From Burkholderiaceae bacterium (GTDB lineage: Bacteria > Pseudomonadota > Gammaproteobacteria > Burkholderiales > Burkholderiaceae_E), in assembly GCA_024711155.1 (NCBI GenBank), contig JANJTK010000183.1, forward strand, positions 1 through 34,050: DNA of 34,050 nt, in the 5' to 3' direction. A program made the translations under genes and the position numbers. Numbering within the stretch: the first letter of the stretch is position 1; every line of letters starts with the position of its first letter. Shown here one piece after another: positions 645 through 31,346 of this stretch. The notes under the pieces are model-generated. The model was not told the DNA's origin and made no database searches. It saw only the letters and a program-made list of their open reading frames with translations.

Positions 645-1403
645 TCAACCGTTGGGCCGCAGCGCAGCCATGCGCTCGGTGATCTCGCTTGCGGCGGTGC
701 GCAACGTTCGCGCGAGCGCCGTTTCTCCGATCGCCTTGATGGCGTCCAGTGCTCCGACGAGCGCCAGAGCGGCGACAGCGTCGCCGTCGGAGTCGAGGAT
801 CGGGACGCCCACGGCGCCGACGCCCGGATCGACCTCGCCGAGCGACAGATAGGCGCGACGCTTGCGTATCTCCGCCATGCGCGCGCGAAACGCCGCCCAG
901 GTTGCGCCGAGTCCCGCCGCTTCGATGTCGGCCCTGCGTGATCCGTAGATCCGCATCAGCTTGGCCCGTGGCTGGTAGGCCAGCAGCACCATGGGGCCGG
1001 CGCCCCGGAACAGCGGCCGGGGTCGTCCGCGTCCGTAGCGCAGGATCGGCGATCCGCCGGCATCGACGCGGTGGACGTCGACCACCCGGAAGCCGCCGTA
1101 CATGGCCGTCAAGACGGCATGGAGATGGGTCTGCCTCGCCAGAGCATCCATCACGGGCAGGCTGGCGAGCAGGACCGGGTCGCTTTCGCGCAGGCGATAG
1201 TCGAGTTCGACGATGCGGGCGCCGAGCGCATCGCGCCCGGCGCCCGCCTTCTGCAGGAAGCCCGCATCGACGAGTTCCTTCACGTACCGGTATCCGGTGG
1301 CCCGGCTGTAGCCGAGGGACTCGATGATTGCGTCGGTATGCCAGTTGGGGTGCTCTGCAGTGAACAGGTCGAGGATCGCAAGCACTCGGGACGAGCTGGT
1401 CAT
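645..1403 (-). CDS. IclR family transcriptional regulator (IclR1)
   Basis: N-terminal wHTH (SSSRVLAILDLFTAEHPNWHTDAIIESLGYSRATGYRYVKELVDAGFL) followed by IclR-type effector domain. Confidence 0.9.
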   Translation of the reverse strand: MTSSSRVLAILDLFTAEHPNWHTDAIIESLGYSRATGYRYVKELVDAGFLQKAGAGRDALGARIVELDYRLRESDPVLLASLPVMDALARQTHLHAVLTAMYGGFRVVDVHRVDAGGSPILRYGRGRPRPLFRGAGPMVLLAYQPRAKLMRIYGSRRADIEAAGLGATWAAFRARMAEIRKRRAYLSLGEVDPGVGAVGVPILDSDGDAVAALALVGALDAIKAIGETALARTLRTAASEITERMAALRPNG

Positions 1404-5030: not shown

Positions 5031-5064
5031 TTATCGCGCATGGTAAGAATTTCGGAGACAAGGC

Positions 5065-5220
5065 GTGACCGACCACGAGGCCGGACTGAGGGCGAAGACC
5101 CGCATCATGATCGGCGGCGGTCAGGTGGACGAGACGGTGAGCGCCTATACCTGGGCCGACGGGCGCGGCAGCAGCGCCATGGCGGCGGTGTCGCTCTGCC
5201 AGCAGCGGGTCGCGCAATGA
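5065..5220 (+). CDS. 51-aa truncated cobalamin (corrinoid)-binding domain fragment, C-terminal part only
   Basis: GTG start with GGAG ribosome binding site 7 nt upstream; translation (M)TDHEAGLRAKTRIMIGGGQVDETVSAYTWADGRGSSAMAAVSLCQQRVAQ matches the C-terminal end of B12-binding corrinoid proteins (xIMIGGGxVxxxxxxxxxADxxxxxAxxAVxL). Stop overlaps the URO-D start (ATGA). Not in the supplied ORF list. Confidence 0.6.
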   Translation: MTDHEAGLRAKTRIMIGGGQVDETVSAYTWADGRGSSAMAAVSLCQQRVAQ

Positions 5221-6482
5221 ATGCGTCCACGCAACCGGCGCCGACCGGGGGCGCGGCGCGCCACGCCGAGCGCCTGAAGCGCGTCATGGACGCGGTCGAG
5301 TTGCGCCAGCCCGACCGCGTGCCGACGGCGTTCTTCAGCACGTTCTGGACCGCGCGGTACGGCGGCATCAGCTGCCGGCAGGCGATGTACGACTACGATC
5401 GCGTGACGCAGCTCGTGAAGCAGGCGGTCCTCGAACTCGAGCCCGACCTGTTCGCGCTGCCGCATCAGCTGAGCCTGCTCGGGCCGGTGATGGACCTGCT
5501 CGATTTCCGCCAGTTGCAGTGGCCGGGGCACGGCACCGACGAGAACACGGGCTACCAGTACCTCGACAAGGAGTACATGAAGGCCGAAGAGTACGAGGAC
5601 TACCTGCTCGATCCGACCGGGTTCTTCCTGTCGAAGTACCTGCCGCGCGTGGGCGGGGCGTTCGAGGGGCTCGCCGAGCTGTCGAACGTACCGGCGCTCT
5701 ACTACATCCGGCTGCTGATCGGTGTGCGCGCCTTCGCCAACCCGAAGTTCGTGCGCTCGATCGAGGCGCTGCAGAGGGCCGGCCAGGAGGCGCAGCGCTT
5801 GATGGGCCACTCGATCAGCTTCGCCAGCGAGATGGCCGAGCTGGGTTTTCCGCTGGCGCACGGCGTGGGCTCGATCGCGCCCTTCGATTTCTTCGGTGAC
5901 TACATGCGCGGCTCGAAGGGCATCATGCTCGACATGTACCGCCGCAAGGACCAGCTGCTGGCCGCTCTGGAACGGGCGCTGCACTTCATCCGGAACGCGA
6001 CCGTCCAGGGTGCGAAGGCCGGGCCGAGCCGCTTCGTGTTCATCCCCGTCCACTGGGGACCGGACGCCTTCATGTCGCAGGCGCAGTTCAAGACCTTCTA
6101 CTGGCCGACGCTGCGCAAGCTCATGATGACTCTGATCGAGCACGACCTGATTCCGGTGCCCCTCTGGGAGAGCGACTGCAGCTCCCGGCTCGAGACGATT
6201 GGCGACATCCCGCCCGGCAAGGCCATCTACTGGTTCGAGCGCACCGACCTGGTCCGCGCGAAGGAAGTGCTCGGCGACGTGGTCTGTCTGCGAGGCAACG
6301 TGCCGACTTCGCTCATGGTCGCGGGGACGCCTGCGGACGTCGACGCTTACTGTCGCAATCTGATCGAAAAGGTCGGCAAGGGCGGTGGACTGATCCTCGA
6401 CGCGGCGTGCGGCATTCCGGACGAGGCGCCCCTCGAGAACGTGCGGGCGATGTTCCAGGCAGCCCGCACCTACACGCCCTGA
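5217..6482 (+). CDS. Uroporphyrinogen decarboxylase (URO-D) family protein / MtaA-like corrinoid methyltransferase
   Basis: URO-D fold sequence (RLKRVMDAVELRQPDRVPTAFF..., FIPVHWGPDAFMSQAQFKTFYWPTLRKLM, CLRGNVPTSLMVAGTPADVDAYCRNLIEKVGKGGGLILDAACGIPDEAPLENVRAM). Confidence 0.85.
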   Translation: MNASTQPAPTGGAARHAERLKRVMDAVELRQPDRVPTAFFSTFWTARYGGISCRQAMYDYDRVTQLVKQAVLELEPDLFALPHQLSLLGPVMDLLDFRQLQWPGHGTDENTGYQYLDKEYMKAEEYEDYLLDPTGFFLSKYLPRVGGAFEGLAELSNVPALYYIRLLIGVRAFANPKFVRSIEALQRAGQEAQRLMGHSISFASEMAELGFPLAHGVGSIAPFDFFGDYMRGSKGIMLDMYRRKDQLLAALERALHFIRNATVQGAKAGPSRFVFIPVHWGPDAFMSQAQFKTFYWPTLRKLMMTLIEHDLIPVPLWESDCSSRLETIGDIPPGKAIYWFERTDLVRAKEVLGDVVCLRGNVPTSLMVAGTPADVDAYCRNLIEKVGKGGGLILDAACGIPDEAPLENVRAMFQAARTYTP

Positions 6483-7351
6483 GCCGTCGCCCTTGCGTTG
6501 CGGCGCGAGCGCCGCACCATTGCGGTAGCGCCCTCGGCGGCAGTGTTCGGCGCCCCGGCCAGGCGGCCGAGTTCCATCCGCATCCGGTCGGCCCCGCGAG
6601 CGAGAATGCCGACGAGGAACTCCCGACGAGGTGCATCGAGCTTGCTCTCGGGGATGACGAATGCAAGGCTTGCGAGGACCTCGCCGTCGGGATTGAATAC
6701 CGGCACCGCGAGCCCGATCAGGCCGGCGACCAGTTCGCCGCGCGATTCGGCGTAACCGGCGCGACGGATGGCGCGCAAGTGTTCCTTGAATGCCTCCCAG
6801 TCCCTGCCCAGCCCGACGCTGCGGATCTCCGCGTGAAACGCCTGGTAGAGCCGGCGCAGACGCGCTGCCGGCAGGCCGGCGAGGATCGCCTTGGCGCTCG
6901 CGCTGCGGAACAGCGGTAGTGCTCGGCCGCGGTCGTGGCCGAGCTCCGCGGGGACATCGCTGGCACGCTGCAGGTGGATGCACATCACGCTGTCGCGCAG
7001 CAGGCTGCAGAGGATGATCGTGTGGCCGGAGGTGACGAAGAGGTCCGCAGCCAGCGGCTGTCCGATTCTCAGGAGCGGATCGGACGCGCGGATCTGGCGA
7101 TCGATCTCGATGAAGCGCGGCCCGAGCGCGTACAGGCTGGCGCTCAGCTTGACGAGGAGTCCGGCTTTGCAGAGCTCGCGCACGTATCTGTACAGCGTAG
7201 CGCGCTTGTAGCCGGTGGCGGCAATCAGGCTGTCGATCGTGCGGGCAGGCTCACGCTCGGTGAACAGATCCACCAGCCCCAGCATGCGGCTGAAGCTGCT
7301 GCTCGCGCGCACCGCCGGCTGTGGCCGGCGGTGCGCGCGAGAGTCGGTCAA
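6470..7351 (-). CDS. IclR family transcriptional regulator (IclR2), probable TTG start overlapping the upstream stop codon
   Basis: wHTH (SSSFSRMLGLVDLFTEREPARTIDSLIAATGYKRATLYRYVRELCKAGLL) and IclR effector domain; similar in layout to IclR1. TTG start inferred from the TTGA overlap. Confidence 0.85.
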   Translation of the reverse strand: MTDSRAHRRPQPAVRASSSFSRMLGLVDLFTEREPARTIDSLIAATGYKRATLYRYVRELCKAGLLVKLSASLYALGPRFIEIDRQIRASDPLLRIGQPLAADLFVTSGHTIILCSLLRDSVMCIHLQRASDVPAELGHDRGRALPLFRSASAKAILAGLPAARLRRLYQAFHAEIRSVGLGRDWEAFKEHLRAIRRAGYAESRGELVAGLIGLAVPVFNPDGEVLASLAFVIPESKLDAPRREFLVGILARGADRMRMELGRLAGAPNTAAEGATAMVRRSRRNARATAQGV

Positions 7352-8958
7352 AACGACACTGTCCTTCTTGGATCGAACGCTGGCCACCACTTGGCGATTC
7401 CGAGATCCGTTGCGATGGCATTGGCCGCGTTGTAGCCGCAGGCGGCGATCGCGTGGCCGCCCGGATGCGTCGAGGCGCCACACAAGTAGAGCCCGTCGAT
7501 GAACGTGCGGTACTGCGACATGCCGGGCCAGGGCCGATTGTAGCCGAGTTGCTCGGGGCAGATTTTCCCCTGGCAGATGTCGCCGCTGACCATGTCGGGC
7601 AGGTACTCCTCGATGTCCTTCGGCGTGTGGATGAACCGGCCGAGGATCTTGTCGCGTGTCATGTTGGGCGCGTAGGTCCGCAACAGATCGAGCATGCGCT
7701 CGGCAGTTTCCCGCCCCACCTCGGGCCATGCGGCGGCGCCGCCCTCGGCGAGGTCGAACGGCGCGGTCAGGCCGAGGTACGCGACGTGCCCACCCGCAGG
7801 CGCCTGGGTCGGGTCGTGCGTGGAGATGATGCCGGCGCTCATTCCGGCGATTTCGGGCACCTGTCCGGCGCGCGCCTGCGCACCCATGCGCACCAGGTCG
7901 CCCGCGGATTCGAACCCGATCGTGTACATCAACGCCTCGTTGACTGCGGGCTCGAGCCGCGAGACGCCGAACACTGGCCGCTCGCTCAGCGCAAGGTGCA
8001 CGCGAAACAGCGAGGTCTCGCTGAACTTGTAGTTCGCCAGGCGCTCGCGCACCTCCACCGGGAGCTTGTCCTCGCCCAGCATGAACATGAACGTATGTAT
8101 CGGGTCGATCGAGCTGGCAACGAATCGTTCCGCTCGCAGTTCCCGGCCATCCCTCAGCGCGACGCCGCGTGCGGAGCCGCGCTCGACCAGGATGCGCTCG
8201 ACCGGCACGCCGGTATGAATCACGCCGCCGTTCTCGCGCACGATGCGCTCTAGCGCCTCGGACAGCCGCCGCGTACCGCCGCGCACGATCCCCGTGCGGC
8301 CCGCGAACCAGTTGACGATGGTCGCGAAGACCAGCGCCGGCATGCCCCGCGTGGTGACGTCGTACTCGGCCGAGACTGCGCCGCGGATGATCGACTGTCG
8401 GCAGTATTCGGACTCGAACAGTTCGTTGGTGTACTCGAGCGGACTCCGATTGAGCACGACGTCGAGGTACTCGGCCCCGCCGGGCTTGCGCCGGATCTCG
8501 TCGTGCCACTCCTGCGGCGGCCGCGGCGCCGAGAACATCTCGGGCATCACGAAGTCGACGTACCACTGTTGCCACTTCGGGCCGACGCGGCTGAAGGTGT
8601 CGGCGTCGCGCGGCGAGATGCGACGCAGCGACTCGCAGGTACGTGCGATGTCCTGGTAAAAGAGAAAGTAGCTGTCGTGCCGAACGAAGGCTTTCTTCGG
8701 ATTCGGGAACACGTACGACACGCCGTAACGGTCCAGCTCGAGGTCGCTGTGGACCGGGCTGTCGTGGACCTTGGTGTAGAGGGCGTGGATGTTGTGCCTG
8801 AACCCCGGAACCGAGAGTTCGTCGGTGCAGAAGCTGCCGCCGGCAACCGGTCGCCCCTCGACCACCGCGATGCGCAGGCCCGCCCTGGCGAGGTAGGCGG
8901 CGGTGATCAGGCCGTTTTGCCCAGCGCCGATGATGATGCCGTCGTAGCTCTCGTCCAT
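7348..8958 (-). CDS. Phytoene dehydrogenase-like NAD(P)/FAD-dependent oxidoreductase
   Basis: N-terminal dinucleotide fold DGIIIGAGQNGLITAAYLARAGLRIAVVEGRPVAGG; C-terminal LYLCGASTHPGGHAIAACGYNAANAI motif; GGGAGGAGCC ribosome binding site. Confidence 0.9.
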   Translation of the reverse strand: MDESYDGIIIGAGQNGLITAAYLARAGLRIAVVEGRPVAGGSFCTDELSVPGFRHNIHALYTKVHDSPVHSDLELDRYGVSYVFPNPKKAFVRHDSYFLFYQDIARTCESLRRISPRDADTFSRVGPKWQQWYVDFVMPEMFSAPRPPQEWHDEIRRKPGGAEYLDVVLNRSPLEYTNELFESEYCRQSIIRGAVSAEYDVTTRGMPALVFATIVNWFAGRTGIVRGGTRRLSEALERIVRENGGVIHTGVPVERILVERGSARGVALRDGRELRAERFVASSIDPIHTFMFMLGEDKLPVEVRERLANYKFSETSLFRVHLALSERPVFGVSRLEPAVNEALMYTIGFESAGDLVRMGAQARAGQVPEIAGMSAGIISTHDPTQAPAGGHVAYLGLTAPFDLAEGGAAAWPEVGRETAERMLDLLRTYAPNMTRDKILGRFIHTPKDIEEYLPDMVSGDICQGKICPEQLGYNRPWPGMSQYRTFIDGLYLCGASTHPGGHAIAACGYNAANAIATDLGIAKWWPAFDPRRTVSF

Positions 8959-8992
8959 CGGCTCCTCCCCGAATTCGCGCGCAGCAACGTGA

Positions 8993-9049
8993 ATGACATT
9001 CTATCCGTTCCCGGGTAGATTGCAAAAAATCCAGGATTGCAGGAAAAAC
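8993..9049 (-). promoter_or_regulatory. Conserved promoter/operator element, copy A
   Basis: ATGACATTCTATCCGTTCCCGGGTAGATTGCAAAAAATCCAGGATTGCAGGAAAAAC; near-duplicate of copy B. On the - strand reads TTGCAA-N16-TAGAAT with a perfect AATCC-A-GGATT dyad just upstream of the -35. Confidence 0.65.
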
Positions 9050-9166
9050 ACGTTAGACCGCCCGGACGCACGCGCTTCGGGTAGTCGCCGCGCCTGGGCG
9101 ACGTCGGAGGGGCTTTCCGAAGTCGTTGACGCGTGCCGTTTCCATTGACCCTTCGAGGACCGTCCG

Positions 9167-9772
9167 ATGTCAGATGCCAGGACCGCCGAACGGCAAGCGA
9201 TCGCCGAGTTGCAACAGAACTGGGGCTTCTGGCGCGACAACGCGGATTGGGACAATCTGCGCGCGACGTTTCATACGGAGGGAACCATTGCCGTCACCTG
9301 GTTTCAGGGGCTGTTCCGCGATTTTGTCGATGCGTCGATCGAACTGCGCAAGAAGCGTCGGGGCTCGCGTCACTGGATCGGCGGTTCGATGATTTCGATG
9401 CTCGGAGCACGCGCGACTGCCGAGACGAACGTGGTCATCATGGGGCGCCAGACTCTGCATGGAGTCGAAGTCGATTCGACGTGCTGGGCGCGCTTTCACG
9501 ACCTGCTGGAAAGACGAGACGGCCGCTGGGCGATCTGCCGGCGCGTCGCGATCTACGACAAGGACCGCCTCGATCCCGTCGTGCCGGGAGCCGCGATCGC
9601 CTTCGACCAGGCGCTGCTTGCGCGCTTTCCCGGCGCCTATCGTCACCTGGGCTATGCGCTCGCCTGCAGCGCGGGTGCACAGATCGCGCTCGACCTGCCC
9701 ACCGGCGACGGCGACGGGCCCGAGCGGCTGCGCGCCGAGGGGCGCGCCTGGCTGGCGCAGGCAGACCGCTGA
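9167..9772 (+). CDS. SnoaL/NTF2-like domain protein
   Basis: Small cone-shaped fold family signature (AIAELQQNWGFWRDNADWDNLRATFHTEGTIAVTWFQG...GRWAICRRVAIYDKDRLDPV). Confidence 0.75.
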   Translation: MSDARTAERQAIAELQQNWGFWRDNADWDNLRATFHTEGTIAVTWFQGLFRDFVDASIELRKKRRGSRHWIGGSMISMLGARATAETNVVIMGRQTLHGVEVDSTCWARFHDLLERRDGRWAICRRVAIYDKDRLDPVVPGAAIAFDQALLARFPGAYRHLGYALACSAGAQIALDLPTGDGDGPERLRAEGRAWLAQADR

Positions 9773-9793
9773 GCGCCTGTGAACCGGGCGGCG

Positions 9794-9840
9794 CGGTTGA
9801 GCGGTGGCGACCGCGGGATGCGGCCGCGCGCGCTCAACCG
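9794..9840. terminator. Candidate bidirectional hairpin terminator between convergent genes
   Basis: Perfect 10-bp arms CGGTTGAGCG (9794-9803) and CGCTCAACCG (9831-9840) with a nested CGCGG/CCGCG stem; lies between convergent SnoaL and Fe-ADH stops. No T-tract. Confidence 0.4.
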
Positions 9841-11012
9841 TCGATCGCCTCGATCATGAGGCGATATTCCACCTGCGTCGGGTGGTGCGGCGCAGGAAGG
9901 TTGAAGAAACAGTCGTGCGCGACCGCGGCCGCCCGTTCCGGATCCGCGAGGCGGTAGCCGTACTCCTTGAGGCTCTTCGGCAGTCCGACGCGCGCGCTGA
10001 ACGCTTCGACGGCATCGGCCGGATGTAGCCCCTCGCGCAACCCCATCGCCGTGGCGAGCTGCGCCATGCGCGCGCTCATGCGCGGCTCGAGAAAACGCAA
10101 CACGGCCGGCAGCGCGAGCGCGACGAGCACCCCGTGGTGCAGTCCCTGGTCGCCCAGGGTATTGCCGATCGCGTGCGCCGAGCCGAGTCCCTTTGCGTGC
10201 AGCATCGCCTGCGTCGCCGCCAGCATCACGTGCCCGCGCGCTTCGAGGTCGCTGCCGTCCTCGACCGCTCGCGGCAGCCAGGCCAGCACGCGCCGCACCG
10301 CGTCGATCGCGAGCGCGTCGCCGATCGGGTTGTTCGCCTTGGCGAGAAACCCCTCGACGGCGTGCGAGAGCGCGTCCAGCCCGGTGGCCGCGGTCAGGAA
10401 CCGCGGTAGCGTGAGCGTGAGTTCGGGGTCGCAGACTGCAATCTTCGGGACCAGCCACGGGCCGGTCATGCCTTCACCGGGCGCGTCCGCCGCGGGGTGG
10501 ATTCCCGCGCCGCGCGAGACTTCGCTGCCGCTGCCCGCGGTCGTCGGTACTGCGATCAGCTTCGCAATGCCCGGACCGATCCGCTCGGGGCGGCCGAAGT
10601 AATCGTGGATCGGGCCGGGGTGCGTGGCCAGCACCGCCACCGCCTTGGCCGCGTCGATCACCGAGCCTCCCCCGAGGGCGACGAGCCCGTCGCACCCGGC
10701 GGCGCGGTAGGCTGCGAGCGCGCGCTCGACGCAGTCGATCGTCGGGTTCTCGGGGATCTCGTCGAAGACCGCCAGCGCGGTCCCGCGCATCGCCGTGCGC
10801 ACCCGGTCGAGTGCACCGCACCGCACCAGGCCCGCGTCGGTCACGACCAGCGGCCGTGTCACGCCGAGCACCGCCAGCTCGCCGGGCAACAGTCGCAGCG
10901 CGCCGGGTCCGAAATGCACGCGCGGATACTGGATGAGCGGACTGGGCATGCCGGAAGAGATGTCGGGCGAGGGCACGAGGCGGTCTCCAACGGTTGCGTC
11001 GGGTGAGCTCAC
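9834..11012 (-). CDS. Iron-containing alcohol dehydrogenase / maleylacetate reductase-like protein
   Basis: GGGSVIDAAKAVAVLATHPGPIHDYFG, TTAGSGSEVSRGAGI, ATGLDALSHAVEGFLAKANNPIGDALAIDAVR, HAKGLGSAHAIGNTLGDQGLHHG motifs. Confidence 0.9.
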   Translation of the reverse strand: MSSPDATVGDRLVPSPDISSGMPSPLIQYPRVHFGPGALRLLPGELAVLGVTRPLVVTDAGLVRCGALDRVRTAMRGTALAVFDEIPENPTIDCVERALAAYRAAGCDGLVALGGGSVIDAAKAVAVLATHPGPIHDYFGRPERIGPGIAKLIAVPTTAGSGSEVSRGAGIHPAADAPGEGMTGPWLVPKIAVCDPELTLTLPRFLTAATGLDALSHAVEGFLAKANNPIGDALAIDAVRRVLAWLPRAVEDGSDLEARGHVMLAATQAMLHAKGLGSAHAIGNTLGDQGLHHGVLVALALPAVLRFLEPRMSARMAQLATAMGLREGLHPADAVEAFSARVGLPKSLKEYGYRLADPERAAAVAHDCFFNLPAPHHPTQVEYRLMIEAIDG

Positions 11013-11032
11013 GGTCAGTCACCGGCCGCCGG

Positions 11033-11815
11033 TCACTGCGTCCACTCCAGCTTCGATCGGACGGCGTCCCGTCGAGCCGCAAACAGCGCGAGATAGCTCG
11101 GGTTGAGCCACGCCTCGATCGCCGTTCGATAGCTCGGCCGCGCGAACAGGCGCTCTCGCCACGCCGCCACTCTCCTTCTCGCGCGCCACAGCGAATCGAG
11201 ACCGAGGTGCTCGAGTCGCACGATGTACGGCATGTAGCCGGTATCGGCGAGCGAAAACGTGTCGCCTGCGAGCCAGGCGCTCCCCTCGAGCACGTCCTCG
11301 ATCGCTTGCAGCGCACGCGACCAGCTGTCGAGCGCTGGAACGAACGTCGGCGCATCCATCCCGCGCTCGATTCCCATCCGCCGCCGCTCGCGCGCCTCGG
11401 CGCTCGGTACGGCACGCAGGTAGGCCTCCAGCTCGGCAGGGGTCTTGCTCAGGTGCTGCTCGCGGAAAGCGATGCACATGCTGAGCGTGCCGATCGCCGC
11501 GTGCAGTTCGTCGTCGAGCCGCTTGGTCCACAGGCGCATGCGCGCTAGCTCGAACGCCGTCGCCGGGCGCAGGCCGGGATCGGGAAAGGCGTCGTCGAGA
11601 TACTCGCAGATCACAGTCGACTCGATGACGACGCCACCGTCGTGGACGAGCGTCGGAACGACGCCGTTCGGATTCAGCGCGAGGTAGTCGGGGCGCAGCG
11701 CATCACCCGCCCGCAAGTTCATGTGCACGCCGGCCCAGTCCAGGCCCTTTTCGGCGAGCGCGACGCGCACCTTCGCGGCGCAGACCGACATGTCGTTGTG
11801 GTAGAGCTGCAGCAT
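11033..11815 (-). CDS. Glutathione S-transferase family protein, LigF-like (beta-etherase-like)
   Basis: GST N-domain (LQLYHNDMSVCAAKVRVALAEKGLDW...LNPNGVVPTLVHDGGVVIESTVICEYLDDAFPD) and MRLWTKRLDDELHAAIGTL, resembling the LigF type as recalled. Confidence 0.85.
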   Translation of the reverse strand: MLQLYHNDMSVCAAKVRVALAEKGLDWAGVHMNLRAGDALRPDYLALNPNGVVPTLVHDGGVVIESTVICEYLDDAFPDPGLRPATAFELARMRLWTKRLDDELHAAIGTLSMCIAFREQHLSKTPAELEAYLRAVPSAEARERRRMGIERGMDAPTFVPALDSWSRALQAIEDVLEGSAWLAGDTFSLADTGYMPYIVRLEHLGLDSLWRARRRVAAWRERLFARPSYRTAIEAWLNPSYLALFAARRDAVRSKLEWTQ

Positions 11816-11894
11816 GGGGCTCCTCCCGGGTGCGCCGCGCGGATGCGATGCGGGCGCCGGAAATGCATCGGCGGCACTGCTCGCCGGGGCGACG

Positions 11895-11952
11895 ATGACA
11901 TCGTATCCGTTTCCGGCAGGAGTGCAAATAAATCCAGCATTACAGGAAAAAC
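11895..11952 (-). promoter_or_regulatory. Conserved promoter/operator element, copy B
   Basis: ATGACATCGTATCCGTTTCCGGCAGGAGTGCAAATAAATCCAGCATTACAGGAAAAAC; 48 of 58 aligned columns match copy A by hand alignment. On the - strand TTGCAC-N16-TACGAT. Confidence 0.65.
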
Positions 11953-12051
11953 GCAGCGAATGACCTGCTCGCGAACCTGGGCCGGGGTCGTCACCGAAGC
12001 CCGATCATCGACTGGACGCGCGAAGAATTGTTCCTGGATTCTGAGTGGCAC

Positions 12052-12080
12052 TTGACGATTGAGTGAAAGTCAGCTCCAAT
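12052..12080 (+). promoter_or_regulatory. Candidate promoter of the large catabolic operon (TTGACG-N17-TCCAAT)
   Basis: -35/-10-like boxes with 17-nt spacer, 47 bp upstream of the acyl-CoA dehydrogenase ATG; a CCTGGATT half-site like that in elements A/B lies at 12033-12040. Confidence 0.35.
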
Positions 12081-12126
12081 CTGGTCAGGGGTCGATTCAC
12101 GCGCCCCTGTGCTGGAGGATGCACGG

Positions 12127-13284
12127 ATGCAGGCTCTCGCAGTCGAGCACGCATTGTTCCGCGACGCGGTGCGCGCGTTCGTCGCGAAGGAAGTCACTCC
12201 GCACGTCCTCGACTGGGAGCGGGAGGGGGAAGTTCCGCGCGACCTGTTCCAGCGCATGGGAGCGCTCGGCTATCTCGGCCTGCGCCTCGCGCCGGAGTAT
12301 GGCGGCGAAGGGTGCGACTTCCGCTACACGGCAATTCTCGTCGACGAACTGATGCGATGCGGTTCGGTCGGCGTTCCGGTCAGCGTGATGGTTCATGCGG
12401 AGTTCGCCACCCGGGTCATCGACCGTGCGGGTTCCCCGATGTTGCGGGAAGAGTTCGTACGGCCGGCGGCGACGGGGGCGCGGATCGGCGCGCTCGGAAT
12501 CACGGAACCCGACGCGGGCAGCGACGTCGGCGCCATCCGCACCACGGCCGTTCGCGACGGCGGCGATGTGGTCATCAACGGAGCCAAGACCTACATCTCG
12601 AACGGCACGATTGCCGATTTCGTCACGACTGCAGTCCGGACCGGGCCGCCGGGCAACGCCGGCATATCGCTCGTCGTGGTGCCGTCGGATGCGCCCGGGT
12701 TCGTCCGTCCGCGCCGATTGAAGAAGCTCGGTACGCATGCATCCGATACCGCAGAGCTCGCGTTCCAGGACTGCCGCGTGCCGTTGCGCAACGTGGTTGG
12801 CCACGAGAACGGCGGCTTCCGGCTGATCATGCAGGGATTCGAGGGCGAGCGGCTGGTGCTGGCGCTCATCGCCTGCGCGCAGATGCGCCTGATGCTCGAC
12901 GAGGCGCGTGCCTGGGGGCACGCGCGCAAGGCGTTCGGCCGGGCGCTTCTGGGGAACCAGTCCTGGCGCCACCGGCTGGCCGACTGTACGACGTCGCTCG
13001 CCGCAGCAGAGGCGCTCACGCGCGAGGCGATCGACCTCCATGTCGCAGGGGCGGAGTGCAACGGGACGATCTCGATGGCGAAGCTGTTCGCGACCGAGTC
13101 CGCGCTCGACGTCGCGCGCACCTGCGCCCAGATTTTCGGCGGCATGGGATACATGGAGGAATGCCTGATGGCGCGGTTGCACCGCGACTGCCTGGCGTTC
13201 ACCGTCGGCGCGGGCACCAGCGAGATGATGCGCGAGATCGTAGCGCGCGAGAGCGGCTTCCTTCCTGGAGCGGGTGACGCATGA
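12127..13284 (+). CDS. Acyl-CoA dehydrogenase (isovaleryl-CoA-dehydrogenase-type active site layout)
   Basis: GITEPDAGSDVGAIRTTA, GAKTYISNGTIADFV, FEGERLVLALIACAQMRLMLDEA, AFGRALLGNQSWRHRLAD, FGGMGYMEE, GAGTSEMMREIVAR. ATG at 12127 has GGAGG at 12114-12118; in-frame GTG at 12109 is an alternative start. Confidence 0.92.
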   Translation: MQALAVEHALFRDAVRAFVAKEVTPHVLDWEREGEVPRDLFQRMGALGYLGLRLAPEYGGEGCDFRYTAILVDELMRCGSVGVPVSVMVHAEFATRVIDRAGSPMLREEFVRPAATGARIGALGITEPDAGSDVGAIRTTAVRDGGDVVINGAKTYISNGTIADFVTTAVRTGPPGNAGISLVVVPSDAPGFVRPRRLKKLGTHASDTAELAFQDCRVPLRNVVGHENGGFRLIMQGFEGERLVLALIACAQMRLMLDEARAWGHARKAFGRALLGNQSWRHRLADCTTSLAAAEALTREAIDLHVAGAECNGTISMAKLFATESALDVARTCAQIFGGMGYMEECLMARLHRDCLAFTVGAGTSEMMREIVARESGFLPGAGDA

Positions 13285-21655: not shown

Positions 21656-22291
21656 ATGGGAATAGCCGAACGAAGGGAGCGCGAGCGCGAGGCGCGCCGG
21701 CGGGCAGTGCTGGAGGCAGCGCGCGGGCTGCTGCTCGAGCGCGGCTTCACCGGCACGACGACCAAGCTGATCGCCGAACGCTGCGAGTTCTCCGAGGCGA
21801 CGCTCTTCTTCTACTTCCAGAGCAAGGACGAGATCCTGGTCTCGCTGCTGTTCGAGGGGATCGAGTTCTGGTCCCGGGGACTGAGGCGCATCGAGGCGCT
21901 GGACCTGCCCGCGGAGCAGAAGCTGCTCCGGCTGTGGCGGTACTTCGGCGAGGTGCGTGCCGAGCATCCAGAGTACTTCCACCTGTCGGCCTACCTGGCC
22001 CAGCCGCGCGCCGCCGAGAACGTGGCCGACGAGGTGAAGGCGGAAGTGATGCGCCGCTCCGGCGAGAACTTCGCCCTGCTCGCAGAGATCGTCCAGAAGG
22101 CGACCGGCGCGACCAACGGACGGCTGGCCGCGGATCTGCTTTGGGGCGCGTTTCTCGGGCTGATGGCATTGCGCGATTCGCGCGGTTGGCTCGGCGCGAA
22201 GTCGCATCCGAGCGACCGCGAACTGGGCGCCGCGTTGCACCTGTTGCTGGACGGATTGCTCCCGGGAAGGGCGCGAGGGGGGGGACGATGA
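21656..22291 (+). CDS. TetR family transcriptional regulator
   Basis: HTH RRAVLEAARGLLLERGFTGTTTKLIAERCEFSEATLFFYFQSKDEIL. Confidence 0.92.
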   Translation: MGIAERREREREARRRAVLEAARGLLLERGFTGTTTKLIAERCEFSEATLFFYFQSKDEILVSLLFEGIEFWSRGLRRIEALDLPAEQKLLRLWRYFGEVRAEHPEYFHLSAYLAQPRAAENVADEVKAEVMRRSGENFALLAEIVQKATGATNGRLAADLLWGAFLGLMALRDSRGWLGAKSHPSDRELGAALHLLLDGLLPGRARGGGR

Positions 22292-30038: not shown

Positions 30039-31346
30039 ATGAAGACGATCCGACTGCATCCCGGCCGCGAGCGTTCGCTGCTGCGCCGCCATCCCTGGGT
30101 GTTCGACTCCGCCGTCGCGAAGGGCGGCGGCGACAGCGGCGAGACCGTGCGCATCGAGTCGCACGAAGGCAAGTTTCTCGCGTGGGCCGCGTTCAGTCCG
30201 CAGTCGCGGATTCGCGCGCGCGCGTGGAGCTTCGACGAGGCGCAGCGCATCGACGCAGCGTTCCTGGCGGCCGCGCTCGCGCGCGCGATCGCTGCGCGGC
30301 GCCGCTTCGACGTGCGCAGCGACGCCGTGCGCCTGGTGCACGGTGAGTCGGACGGACTGCCGGGTCTGGTCGTCGACTGCTACGGCGACACGCTGGTCGC
30401 GCAGTTCGGCAGCGCCGGCGCCGAGCGCTGGAAGGGCGTCGTCGCCGATGCGCTGCTGAGCGCGACCGGCCTCGCGCGCCTCTACGAGCGCTCGGACGCC
30501 GGCGCGCGCGCGCTCGAAGGCCTGCCCGCCGTCACCGGCTGGTTGCGCGGCGGCGCAGCGGCGGGCGCCGCGGCAGGCGGGGAGGCCTGCGGGAACGACA
30601 GTGGGGAGGCCTGCGGGAATGCCGACGGGGAGGCGCCGCCGCCGGCGCTGGAGATCGTCGAGCACGACTGGCGCTTCACCGTCGACATCGCCACCGGCCA
30701 CAAGACCGGTTTCTACCTCGACCAGCGCGACAACCGCAAGCGCTTCGCCGACTGCGTGCAGCGACTGCGACTGCGCCGGGTGCTGAACTGCTTCTGCTAC
30801 ACCGGCGGCTTCACGGTGGCGGCGCTCGCCGGGATGCGCGCGGCCGACGTCGACGACGGCGAGGTCGTGTCGATAGATTCGTCGGCGCCCGCACTCGATC
30901 GCGCCCGCGCACACGTCGCGCTCAACGGCTTCGACCCTGCGCGCACGCGCTTCGTCGACGCCGACGTCAACGCGTCGCTGCGCCGGTTCCTGGAAGACGG
31001 CGCGCGCTTCGACGCGATCGTCCTCGACCCGCCGAAGTTCGCGCCGACGGCAGCGCACGCCGAGCGCGCCGCGCGCGCGTACAAGGACATCAACCGGCTC
31101 GCGCTGCAACTGCTCGAGCCGGGCGGCGTGCTCTTCACCTTCTCGTGTTCGGGCGGCGTCAGCGCGGATCTGTTCCACAAGATCGTCGCCTCGGCGGGCG
31201 CCGATGCGGGTGTCGACGGCTACATCGTCGAGACGCTGGAGGCGGCGCCCGATCATCCGGTGACGCTGGAGTTTCCGGAAGGGGCGTACCTGAAGGGGCT
31301 GGTGGTGATGCGCAAGGGGGACATCGATGCGAGGCACGGTCGATGA
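30039..31346 (+). CDS. rlmI: Class I SAM-dependent rRNA methyltransferase, RlmI family (23S rRNA m5C1962-type)
   Basis: PUA-like N-terminus (RLHPGRERSLLRRHPWVFDSAV), TGHKTGFYLDQRDNR, VLNCFCYTGGFTVAAL, FDAIVLDPPKFAP, LFTFSCSGGV. Confidence 0.9.
   Translation: MKTIRLHPGRERSLLRRHPWVFDSAVAKGGGDSGETVRIESHEGKFLAWAAFSPQSRIRARAWSFDEAQRIDAAFLAAALARAIAARRRFDVRSDAVRLVHGESDGLPGLVVDCYGDTLVAQFGSAGAERWKGVVADALLSATGLARLYERSDAGARALEGLPAVTGWLRGGAAAGAAAGGEACGNDSGEACGNADGEAPPPALEIVEHDWRFTVDIATGHKTGFYLDQRDNRKRFADCVQRLRLRRVLNCFCYTGGFTVAALAGMRAADVDDGEVVSIDSSAPALDRARAHVALNGFDPARTRFVDADVNASLRRFLEDGARFDAIVLDPPKFAPTAAHAERAARAYKDINRLALQLLEPGGVLFTFSCSGGVSADLFHKIVASAGADAGVDGYIVETLEAAPDHPVTLEFPEGAYLKGLVVMRKGDIDARHGR
30579..30634 (+). 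repeat. 24-bp in-frame tandem repeat (about 2.3 copies) inside the RlmI-like gene
   Basis: GGGGAGGCCTGCGGGAAC at 30579, GGGGAGGCCTGCGGGAAT at 30603, GGGGAGGC at 30627; encodes GGEACGND/SGEACGNA/DGEAPPP. Confidence 0.85.

Follow-up and report, generated by a model that had tools for sequence, protein, structure and literature searches.

The question raised by this locus is whether two short stretches of DNA, which closely resemble each other and precede different genes, are two copies of one regulatory element, and, if so, which regulator acts on it. The window (the whole stretch of DNA that was analysed, 34,050 nucleotides) is an entire contig (C84) of a 2.95 Mb draft genome in 300 contigs, 90.5% complete, and it belongs to the genus, with an RlmI-like methyltransferase at 30039 that is 85% identical in the congeners G006 and G015. 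When the two stretches were realigned, the match described in an earlier note on this DNA proved exact in its coordinates, identity and gap: 48 of 58 columns are identical, with a single 1-nt gap, and both copies lie on the minus strand.

8993..9049, minus strand: element copy A, predicted promoter and upstream box of the FAD-iclR2 operon; 48/58 to copy B, two genomic copies only; read from 9049 to 8993 as GTTTTTCCTGCAATCCTGGATTTTTTGCAATCTACCCGGGAACGGATAGAATGTCAT
11895..11952, minus strand: element copy B, predicted promoter and upstream box of the GST-Fe-ADH operon; same basis as copy A; read from 11952 to 11895 as GTTTTTCCTGTAATGCTGGATTTATTTGCACTCCTGCCGGAAACGGATACGATGTCAT

The sequence shared ahead of the two transcription units goes beyond chance. 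Aligned locally, the intergenic regions reached a score of 47, and the element by itself 39, whereas 2000 dinucleotide shuffles averaged 13.4 and never exceeded 27. Each half of the element occurs exactly twice in the window, where 0.00 occurrences were expected, and the next-best match to the element inside the window scored 15. The similarity stops at the borders of the block, the 100-bp flanks of the two copies being alike only at chance level (p 0.20 upstream, 0.07 downstream). The element has a GC content of 42-43%, compared with 69% for the contig. A coding origin for the conserved block is unlikely, because it carries a 1-nt gap and is intergenic in both places.

The genes to which the element may belong, together with the other regulators of the window, are the following.

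7348..8958, minus strand: FAD oxidoreductase, CrtO/phytoene desaturase-like (Amino_oxidase; Pfam, NCBIfam)
6470..7351, minus strand: IclR2 regulator (PF09339 match at 7148-7291 plus translation); its start codon, probably TTG, overlaps the stop codon of FAD (TTGA)
11033..11815, minus strand: glutathione S-transferase, GST (Pfam)
9834..11012, minus strand: iron-containing alcohol dehydrogenase, Fe-ADH (Pfam), 20 nt after GST and in the same operon
9167..9772, plus strand: SnoaL-like protein (Pfam), divergent from FAD
12109..13284, plus strand: acyl-CoA dehydrogenase (Pfam), at the head of the CoA operon and divergent from GST
645..1403, minus strand: IclR1 (Pfam), divergent from the TRAP (DctP) operon
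21656-22291: TetR

From this arrangement, copy A is predicted to drive a two-gene operon of the FAD oxidoreductase and IclR2, the latter apparently being translationally coupled to the former, and copy B to drive GST and Fe-ADH. The acyl-CoA dehydrogenase is probably under its own promoter, and nothing was found that links the element to the expression of this gene or of the divergent SnoaL gene.

In each copy the conserved block covers roughly positions -58 to -2 in a sigma70-like promoter, comprising an AT-rich upstream box, the hexamer TTGCAM, a 16-nt spacer and TASRAT. The hexamers and spacer proposed in the earlier note were present as it had described them, and so was the ribosome-binding site common to the two downstream genes, since the window has GGGAGGAGCC at two places only, ahead of FAD and ahead of GST.

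8998..9025, minus strand: promoter A, with TTGCAA and TAGAAT 16 nt apart and a start predicted near 8991; promoter scan, 9/12 of the sigma70 consensus
11900..11927, minus strand: promoter B, weak, with TTGCAC and TACGAT 16 nt apart and a start predicted near 11893; read from the sequence, below the scan threshold
9027..9049, minus strand: upstream box A, GTTTTTCCTGCAATCCTGGATTT, 21/23 positions identical to box B, directly upstream of the -35 hexamer
11930..11952, minus strand: upstream box B, GTTTTTCCTGTAATGCTGGATTT
8960..8969, minus strand: FAD ribosome-binding site GGGAGGAGCC, by sequence
11818..11827, minus strand: GST ribosome-binding site GGGAGGAGCC, by sequence

Both copies have the sigma70-type layout, with two hexamers near TTGACA/TATAAT and a spacer within the 16-18 nt usual for this type, copy A at 9/12 and copy B sub-threshold. 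The predicted leaders would measure 33 nt for copy A and 78 nt for copy B. The AT-rich box of 23 nt differs at 2 positions between the copies, and the spacer between -35 and -10 is largely conserved, CCGGRAACGGA being kept in both; the distance from the box to the -35 hexamer differs by 1 nt. An extent from the predicted start site to some 20-odd bases above -35 is what would be expected of the footprint of a regulated promoter. We infer that upstream box A is a candidate activator site or an UP-like element, and the weak promoter B would suit an activator. The dyad AATCC-A-GGATT (11 bp), to which the earlier note had drawn attention, is indeed perfect in copy A. The symmetry argument built on it fails, because the dyad is broken in copy B and no palindrome joint to both copies exceeded chance, the best one being equalled in 86 out of 300 column shuffles. 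Other identities considered for the block were a sigma54 promoter (GG-N10-GC), for which the spacing is wrong (by sequence, copy A has GG-N7-GC and copy B has GG-N8-GC), and a structured RNA leader or riboswitch, dropped because no Rfam family matched in 8900-12200.

The search for further copies showed that the element is confined to this locus. In the assembled genome (2.95 Mb), the upper half and the promoter half of the element (up to 3 mismatches each) and its 16-base core (up to 2 mismatches) each gave two sites only. Among 150 relatives the upper half gave merely scattered matches with 2-3 mismatches, and for some of them the surroundings were fetched, none of which aligned over the element (best score 18). 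The lower half had no match among 60 relatives, and the exact composite had none across 398 genomes of the order other than its own. No third copy was thus found in the assembled genome or in the relatives searched, which speaks against a dispersed repeat and gives no sign of phylogenetic conservation, although a further copy could lie in the missing tenth of the genome. Plasmid searches returned no homologue above 60% identity and a viral scan returned none. The earlier note had allowed that the element might turn out to be an abundant dispersed repeat; with two copies only in 2.95 Mb, a dispersed repeat or MITE, of which many genomic copies would be seen, was rejected. More generally, that it should be mobile or dispersed is suggested by little beyond the two similar copies 2.9 kb apart and is largely refuted, because these two keep the same orientation and the same register to promoters and starts.

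The orthologous loci of relatives were also compared. For the FAD oxidoreductase no close orthologue was found: the best identity within the family was 39%, and 369 genomes sampled from the class yielded none either. Relatives of GST were found at 15 loci in 85,462 species genomes (best 53% over the full length, one 65% over 83 residues), and the element was absent upstream at all 15. In the relatives searched, neither copies of the element nor close orthologues of FAD or GST were found.

As to the regulator, a common element before two operons is most simply, and in our judgement probably, read as co-control. The earlier note had assigned this to a single regulator, a claim that holds in part: there is a promoter-shaped element shared by the two operons, and the case for IclR2 is strengthened by the overlap of its gene with the FAD stop codon, which would place the gene within the operon driven by copy A. 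An adjacent IclR gene in an autoregulatory position is therefore at hand, and IclR2 may tentatively be considered the best local candidate, an autoregulator that would also control GST/Fe-ADH. The parts of the claim that concern IclR1 and TetR found no support, the element being absent upstream of either gene.

Two consensus operators have been published for the IclR family, GKTYCRYW3-4RYGRAMC for group 1 and TGRAACAN1-2TGTTYCA for group 2 (PMC8222616). Inside either copy there was no match to them within 4 mismatches, and the idea that the element is an IclR operator of a known type was dropped. The consensus scan had its positive control in GGTTCGAACCGCGGACC, from relatives, which fits the group 1 consensus (PMC8222616) with one mismatch, the central W positions being left free. 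The recognition helices read YKRATLYRYVREL in IclR2, YSRATGYRYVKEL in IclR1 and FTRPTGYRYIREL or FTRPTAYRYLREL in IclRs of the same family, and since they differ, different operators are to be expected.

The linkage between an IclR gene and enzymes of this kind appears to be recurrent in relatives, because IclRs adjoin FAD homologues in G002, G006, G013 and G015 and a TRAP-GST cluster in G056. In the four congeneric operons, as in the window, an IclR gene and an FAD oxidoreductase gene lie side by side on one strand, the oxidoreductase being a homologue with 37-38% identity. However, there the IclR gene comes first, directly upstream of FAD, whereas IclR2 follows FAD; the congeneric IclRs are just 29-34% identical to IclR2. 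The element of the window is missing from the leaders of these operons, in which GGTTCGAACCGCGGACC, or a sequence close to it, forms a group 1 IclR site. These leaders (L105, L107, L108 and L110, from G006, G015, G013 and G002, respectively) all combine GGTTCGAACCGCGGACC or its close variants with a -10-like box and a -35-like box, TTGACC, and the near-perfect group 1 site sits just before the IclR start; judging by this placement, it is a probable autoregulatory operator in the genus.

A second comparison is offered by the IclR/TRAP transporter/GST cluster of the same family (G035, G043, G050 and G056). It resembles the window in its divergent IclR-DctP arrangement, within an IclR/DctPQM cluster (DctM 68-69% and DctP 64-65% identical), and in having GST (in G056) and SnoaL relatives nearby. 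In G056, in contrast to the window, GST lies directly behind DctM, together with an FAA hydrolase, and the IclR-DctP promoter of the cluster has a different AT-rich motif, CTTGAATATTGACATTTCTTCAATATC, instead of the element. In the IclR-DctP intergenic regions (L141-L144, from G056, G035, G043 and G050) this motif is repeated around TGACATTT, as CTCAAATAGTGACATTTGCTTCAAG and CTTGAATATTGACATTTCTTCAATATC; it is probably the operator of an IclR controlling a TRAP transporter, and in G056 it is followed by the genes for GST and the FAA hydrolase. Homology between the element and this motif was rejected as inconsistent between the copies, because the best p in 20 tests, 0.03, was obtained with copy A and had no counterpart in copy B.

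Outside the family, the autoregulated catabolic operons of PcaU/PcaR/PobR and HmgR (PMC8222616) are comparable in that the regulator gene adjoins catabolic genes, the operator lies at most about 80 nt from the start and few neighbouring units are co-controlled. They differ from the window in that neither consensus group is found in the element and in that IclR2 follows the enzyme gene instead of preceding it.

The proposal that we favour, to which we give a probability of roughly 0.4, is that a paired promoter-operator sets FAD-iclR2 and GST-Fe-ADH together, most likely through IclR2. The element would be a duplicated promoter-operator (about -58 to -2) driving two neighbouring catabolic operons on the minus strand. 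RNA polymerase with the housekeeping sigma factor would use TTGCAM/TASRAT, and both promoters would be set jointly by a regulator that binds the conserved upstream box and perhaps the conserved spacer too; if this regulator is IclR2, as seems most likely, it would thereby also regulate itself. The starting point is what was observed: a duplicated block of known extent that is built like a promoter and occurs at two sites only, and the order of the genes. What speaks for the proposal is a match far beyond the shuffles between flanks that are at chance, two genomic copies only, a conserved spacer and the coupling of IclR2 under copy A. Against it count the missing phylogenetic footprint, IclR consensus and joint palindrome, the 1-nt difference in spacing, the weakness of promoter B and the 14 HTH_IclR matches in the genome, which has many other regulators besides. 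In another reading the two operons are co-controlled via the element by a regulator encoded elsewhere (for example LysR, TetR or another IclR) and not by IclR2. In its favour are the missing IclR consensus, the best local dyads, which resemble no known IclR type, and the many other regulators of the genome, with HTH_IclR matches on other contigs among them. A local regulator is nevertheless favoured by the position of iclR2 in the operon and by the IclR-enzyme linkage that recurs in relatives, and we consider this reading rather unlikely.

It is also conceivable, with still lower probability, that a promoter was copied by local duplication or recombination and kept because it was functional, the box being UP-like and no specific regulator being shared. 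The near-identical core promoter and ribosome-binding site, the AT-richness in a GC-rich contig and the chance-level palindrome agree with such an origin. On the other hand, similarity has decayed to chance in the flanks but not in the block, which suggests selection on the block, and a plain promoter would need neither the conserved spacer nor the 23-nt box. Control by IclR1 or TetR, tying in the CoA operon, is very improbable. Both regulators are encoded in the window and could act in trans, and IclR1 is similar to IclR2; the congeners, however, keep the CoA operon with its TetR under another promoter motif. In G009, G013 and G014 this operon is conserved (52-72% identity for most genes, 52-54% for TetR), GST, Fe-ADH and the element are all absent there, and the different conserved motif is CACGAAAACTGAGTATYGTTCG. 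Because of these observations the element would seem foreign to the CoA operon, and the suggestion in the earlier note that this operon might belong to the regulon is not supported. A weak TCCTGGATT match upstream of ACAD1 (9/9 bases) was judged to be chance at that length.

If co-control by IclR2 is right, it provides a functional link between the orphan CrtO-like FAD oxidoreductase, GST and Fe-ADH that homology alone does not give; it also points to IclR2 as the candidate regulator and adds an operator that belongs to neither of the two published IclR consensus groups. Its reach would be local and the kind of system, ordinary local control, is well known; a small local regulon of this known kind is plausible. 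A more speculative, rather doubtful extension is that IclR2 or an unlinked regulator reads an operator type not yet described (TTTTTCCTGYAATSCTGGATTT), tying the FAD oxidoreductase to GST/Fe-ADH in an undescribed glutathione-dependent catabolic route.

Some minor observations concern the surroundings. In the congeneric CoA operons (L115-L120, from G009, G013 and G014), the conserved promoter motif CACGAAAACTGAGTATCGTTCG is a candidate site for the TetR regulator of the operon. In the window, the TRAP transporter genes are followed at 5040-6482 by a URO-D/MtaA-like methyltransferase domain protein without a Pfam match over its first ~260 residues. IclR1 and IclR2 are paralogues, 37% identical, and stand at either end of this TRAP transporter/URO-D block.
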